64,000 bases of DNA from Siphlonurus alternatus (lineage: Eukaryota > Arthropoda > Insecta > Ephemeroptera > Siphlonuridae), in NCBI GenBank assembly GCA_949825025.1, contig OX463780.1:48567280-48631279 (forward strand). Direction: 5' to 3'. This document shows positions 35,834-35,979 of this stretch, piece after piece; positions within the stretch are counted from its first letter, which is position 1, and the number at the start of each line of letters is the position of its first letter. A model generated the notes under the pieces. It worked only from the letters and a program-made list of their open reading frames with translations, made no database searches and was not told the DNA's origin. A program made the translations under genes and the position numbers.

Positions 35834-35889
35834 AATCACTTCGAGGAGTAAGCTTTCAAACTTCAAAAAAAAAACAATGCCGCATACAG
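35834..35889 (+). other. Poxn: Poxn start-codon exon (5' UTR tail plus 13 coding nt)
   Basis: A strong acceptor (pyrimidine-rich tract, then ATGTTACAG ending at 35833) precedes 43 nt with no ATG. Then come ATGCCGCATACAG and the donor GTAAGC at 35890. The acceptor implies a further upstream non-coding exon. Alternatively transcription may start nearby and the acceptor may be chance. Confidence 0.6.
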
Positions 35890-35979
35890 GTAAGCAAATT
35901 TTAAAAAAACAATGCCGCATACAGGTAAGCAAATTTTAAAAAAACAATGCCGCATACAGGTAAGCAAATTTTAAAAAAA
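35875..35979 (+). repeat. Three tandem 35-bp units, each with Poxn start codon and splice donor
   Basis: Units at 35875-35909, 35910-35944 and 35945-35979 appear identical. Each contains CAATGCCGCATACAG, then GTAAGCAAATTTT and an A-run. The start codons are at 35877, 35912 and 35947, and the donors at 35890, 35925 and 35960. Confidence 0.97.
35877..35889 (+). CDS. Poxn: Poxn coding exon 1 (13-nt start micro-exon, cassette 1)
   Basis: ATG CCG CAT ACA G encodes M-P-H-T and the first base of Gly5; GTAAGC follows as donor. Joined to GC CAG GCG GGC at 53543 it yields MPHTGQAG in frame. The context AAACAATGC has A at -3, good for insect initiation. Identical cassettes follow at 35912-35924 and 35947-35959, so any of them could be used and the protein would be the same. 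Confidence 0.85.

Follow-up and report, generated by a model that had tools for sequence, protein, structure and literature searches.

The analysed window, a 64,000-nucleotide (nt) stretch of Siphlonurus alternatus DNA, carries a paired-box gene whose start exon is present in three tandem copies. When joined, segments 35877–35889, 53543–53763, 61965–62232 and 63171–63616 encode an open 315-residue paired-box protein. The features of the locus are as follows; acceptor and donor ranks are among the 2851 AG and 2998 GT sites of the + strand, scored crudely with untrained weights.

35834–35889, + strand: proposed 56-nt internal exon ending at donor 1, with 43 nt of 5′ untranslated region (UTR) and the 13-nt coding start (from the acceptor rank)
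35864–35873, + strand: A10 tract on the 5′ side of the array (from the sequence)
35868–35979, + strand: exact tandem array, three 35-base pair (bp) units (A7 plus a 28-bp core) followed by A7 (from TRF and an exact-repeat search)
35877–35889, + strand: first copy of the start exon (MPHTG...), with donor 1 at 35890; no other copy has its own AUG first in its mRNA
35912–35924, + strand: second copy of the start exon, with donor 2 at 35925; its mRNA would have one out-of-frame upstream AUG, the frame of which overlaps the true start
35947–35959, + strand: third copy of the start exon, with donor 3 at 35960; its mRNA would have two out-of-frame upstream AUGs
35973–35982, + strand: A10 tract on the 3′ side of the array (from the sequence)
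53543–53763, + strand: next coding exon of Poxn, first part of the paired box (acceptor rank 10/2851, donor rank 5/2998)
61965–62232, + strand: Poxn coding exon, second part of the paired box (acceptor rank 118/2851, donor rank 1/2998)
63171–63616, + strand: last coding exon of Poxn (acceptor rank 14/2851), with the stop codon TGA at 63614–63616

A Pfam search of the assembled protein identified the paired-box domain (PAX, PF00292) at residues 5 to 130 with an E value of 2.2e-61 and no other family at E values up to 0.001, and thus no homeodomain. The solved structures related to it by sequence are the paired domains of Pax5, Pax8, Pax6 and Prd. Among the best 120 of 6620 matched proteins, to which all homologue figures here refer, the two closest come from mayflies, Cloeon dipterum (68% identity over 95%) and Neocloeon triangulifer (70% over 95%), and are both named pox-neuro. 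For a third mayfly, Ephemera danica, a partial protein shows 72% identity over 76% and shares the terminal SCAPSPSG with the protein of the window. MPHTGQAGV is the exact start of 95 of the 120 homologues and MPHTGQ is present in 100; the remaining 20 we read as mostly different paired-box proteins, incomplete records or gene models that begin with another exon. Judged by its PAX domain and these nearest relatives, the best 120 of 6620 matches, the gene that carries the array is Poxn, as an earlier note on this DNA had named it; the same note had placed the acceptor of the next exon at 53543, precisely where the exons join into the 315-residue frame. An open frame at 716–994, which resembles the C-terminal part of a proteasome alpha subunit, may belong to a neighbour of Poxn. 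We found no Rfam matches and no ARAGORN tRNAs in the window.

The maximal exact array (35868–35979) consists of three 35-bp units, each composed of A7 and the 28-bp core CAATGCCGCATACAGGTAAGCAAATTTT and together occupying 35868–35972, and a 7-base overhang of A. There are no base differences among the units. Each contains ATGCCGCATACAG|GTAAGC, which places the ATGs at 35877, 35912 and 35947 and the GTAAGC donors at 35890, 35925 and 35960, and a search of both strands of the whole window found the 13-mer ATGCCGCATACAG at these three sites only. TRF detected the array independently (35868–35983, period 35, 3.3 copies, score 225). Twenty mononucleotide shuffles of the window, a lenient control as single bases are shuffled, yielded no exact two-copy tandem with a period of 15–99. 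The start exon is tripled in the assembled sequence, and the initial description of three identical units with these start codons and donors holds.

The A10 tracts on both sides of the array and the A7 tracts that link the copies point to a recent tandem duplication between A-tracts, the misalignment of which would yield exactly such a unit. The head-to-tail identical units with 7 A shared at their junctions have the form of a microhomology-type tandem duplication, and the flanks and joints support slippage duplication as the likely origin, one of the possibilities first put forward. The identity of all three copies, on which the age estimate depends, suggests a recent event or conversion between the copies, which would look alike. 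Elsewhere in the window, 6564–6651 is a clean exact 43-bp tandem duplication outside simple repeats, and as it has an overhang of only 2 bases, A-tract homology is no general rule in this DNA. Two-copy tandem duplications with 93–94% matches lie at 10522–10650 (63–64 bp) and 38427–38566 (69 bp) and, if divergence is a measure of age, would predate the Poxn array. Short tandem duplications are not uncommon in the window: 5 of the 34 TRF rows have a period of at least 30, the array included, and among the three rows of exact, non-simple tandems with a period of 15–399 that remained after filtering, one is the 43-bp duplication. A rough neutral expectation, based on this one window and on two events of which the Poxn array is one, is ~5e-4 per eligible start exon (2 clean exact duplications per 64 kb × 17 placements covering a 19-nt target).

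The genome might instead hold a single unit, with two more inserted at the A-tracts by the assembler or polisher. A-tracts are error-prone in long reads, and this assembly has a gap of 200 N at 42009–42208, immediately after a 137-base (CT)n tract, as in scaffolded long-read assemblies. However, the 35 bp are copied cleanly, the 28-bp core is unique, the lengths of the A-tracts are not uniform (7 and 7 inside versus 10 and 10 outside), and the window also contains the diverged tandem duplications at 10522 and 38427. We therefore consider an assembly artefact unlikely.

The 13 coding nucleotides had been described as the complete coding exon 1, which is probably incorrect. A strong predicted acceptor, TTTTTCTTTTTATGTTACAG|AATCA, with its boundary at 35833/35834, ranks 3 among the 2851 AG sites of the + strand by the crude score, compared with 10, 118 and 14 for the acceptors of the accepted Poxn exons. 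For this reason, we propose a larger internal exon, of which the 13 nt are probably only a part and which would begin 43 nt before the first ATG (ATG1). From this acceptor, the scores suggest an exon of 56, 91 or 126 nt through donors 1, 2 and 3, respectively. By the same crude score, the three array donors are equal and high in strength, and together with the two other Poxn donors they make up the five top GT sites of the + strand. We identified neither a further exon nor a promoter in the window upstream of the proposed exon.

Two further elements were observed near this exon. An extra GTAAGC at 35848 within it (GGA|GTAAGC) is a weaker donor (rank 114/2998), the use of which would delete every start codon. 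Separately, 330 bp downstream of the array, the segment 36201–36400 has a GC content of 0.42, versus 0.30 window-wide, and contains TATAAAG at 36289 and a potential donor, AAAAAG|GTATAC. In this it looks like a TATA promoter followed by a short non-coding exon, and could be a further transcript start within intron 1 of Poxn. A promoter scan of 36200–36500 with a bacterial model was given no weight, since the model is unsuited to an insect.

The array could also be envisaged as a ratchet of recursive splicing, in which CAG|GTAAGC in units 2 and 3 serves as a joined acceptor and donor and the long intron opens with steps that each regenerate the same junction. Every unit does contain AG|GT, which tandem duplication can turn into splice sites, according to one report (PMC3443670). 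The donor half of such a site is strong, but as acceptors the array CAGs rank only 803/2851 by the crude score, being preceded by A-rich and not pyrimidine-rich sequence, and the 35- and 70-nt spacings are very short for an intron. We rejected the ratchet site on the poor acceptor, and recursive splicing is exceedingly improbable.

The three units are not interchangeable in the mRNA. According to the earlier note, any of them spliced to 53543 would give the same MPHTGQAG start, and this is so only if the preceding AUGs are bypassed; otherwise the claim fails, because the 35-nt period shifts the frame. As 35 is not divisible by 3, the units differ in effect, and earlier AUGs are out of frame with the Poxn start. 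The donor 1 mRNA has a single array AUG, which opens Poxn. In the donor 2 mRNA, ATG1 opens a 20-codon frame unrelated to Poxn, which reads through the true start as far as a stop codon in the following exon. In the donor 3 mRNA, ATG1 and ATG2 each open a 20-codon non-Poxn frame; that of ATG2 overlaps the true start, and that of ATG1 stops at 35937–35939. Since this stop lies 7 nt upstream of ATG3, some reinitiation at ATG3, the true start of this mRNA, is conceivable. Scanning ribosomes start at the first AUG when contexts are equal, and here the context is identical in all units (AAAACA-AUG-C), so that initiation should take place at the first AUG. Thus, among the three donors, donor 1 alone gives Poxn from the first AUG.

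Which donor is used may depend on how the exon is defined. Minigenes that carried two identical CAG|guaagu donors and were spliced by exon definition used the upstream donor only (PMC9225289). In the genome data of that study, strict exon-definition events favoured the upstream donor and strict intron-definition events the downstream one; across all near-equal competing pairs, the upstream preference was just 60%. Reed and Maniatis, as cited in that paper, point to the downstream donor. Intron 1 of Poxn is 17.6 kb long, which makes exon definition likely, provided that the acceptor at 35833 is used; under exon definition, donor 1 is the likely choice. If the exon really is the first exon of the transcript, this argument weakens and the rule may not apply. 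In a predicted fold of 200 nt, the three donors were alike (mean unpaired 0.53, 0.53 and 0.51), and a donor preference based on RNA structure was accordingly rejected. That donor 1 is both the expected donor and the only one to give Poxn from the first AUG would explain how the array is tolerated.

Together, these observations suggest the following scenario. Two recent tandem duplications, through slippage or misaligned repair between the flanking A-tracts, would have tripled the Poxn start exon. The exon is probably internal, with part of the 5′ UTR beginning at 35834; its definition across the exon would rely on the acceptor at 35833. Use of the nearest donor (donor 1, 35890) would yield an ordinary mRNA and protein, leaving units 2 and 3 as the initial 70 nt of the 17.6-kb intron, whereas use of donor 2 or 3 would place one or two out-of-frame AUGs upstream and give little Poxn. 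The array would then be nearly neutral or at most slightly harmful, and individuals are likely to differ in the number of units. We regard this scenario as a whole, a young and near-neutral slippage array tolerated through the use of donor 1, as probable.

The same features can be read as regulation. Splicing factors could tune Poxn translation through donor position alone, with donor 1 as the ON state and donors 2 and 3 as OFF or low states because of their upstream AUGs. The equal strength of the donors, the identical AUG contexts and a period of 35, which turns every extra unit into an out-of-frame upstream start, are consistent with such a functional array. By contrast, identical copies are what a young duplication would be expected to show, and none of the 120 homologues contains MPHT twice, a count in which intronic or out-of-frame copies would be hidden as only proteins are compared. 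A regulatory switch is possible but unsupported, and we consider a functional array improbable. In a quantitative form of the idea, every further unit would bring an equally strong donor together with an AUG out of frame, and the amount of Poxn would follow both the donor used and the number of units that an individual carries. Such a copy-number translational rheostat is very unlikely; if true, it would mean heritable variation in a neural selector gene arising from a slippage-prone array.

If the array is real in the reads, the locus provides a natural experiment on donor choice: three identical donors with identical AUG contexts differ by position alone, and translation should suffer with two of them. 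It offers a test, in an insect gene, of the rule of exon proximity, and a view of how a gene essential to development can bear having its start exon multiplied. It is also a warning for annotation: a tandem start exon gives rise to three gene models that are equal yet not equivalent.

The array was initially held to be without precedent, a claim that is too wide. UGT1 and protocadherin genes are reported to contain large-scale tandem first exons, divergent copies with their own promoters (PMC3325998, PMC1885805). As there, several tandem start exons, each with a donor, precede common exons in Poxn; unlike there, the Poxn copies are 35 bp long and identical, apparently share one exon and would all specify the same residues. 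Units 35 bp apart presumably have no room for separate promoters, and the locus is not a variable-first-exon cluster. A narrowly worded literature search, covering few subscription papers, turned up no report of a start exon and its donor repeated as a small array of identical units, and likewise nothing on a Poxn start exon array.

The array resembles short tandem duplications produced by slippage or repair between direct repeats, in that its copies are identical and head-to-tail and the repeat at the joints, A7, also flanks the array. It differs from the usual ones in that the duplicated piece is an entire coding start exon with its donor, in three copies. Tandem genomic duplication of AGGT is reported to lead to intron gain (PMC3443670, PMC4974935), and the Poxn duplication similarly carries AG|GT and multiplies splice sites; its extra copies, however, would sit in an existing intron and make poor acceptors, and no new intron is predicted. 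A further parallel is provided by the minigenes in which identical CAG|GTAAG donors vie for one acceptor across an exon (PMC9225289). Unlike these constructs, the Poxn array is natural and has three donors, and every extra unit adds an out-of-frame AUG.
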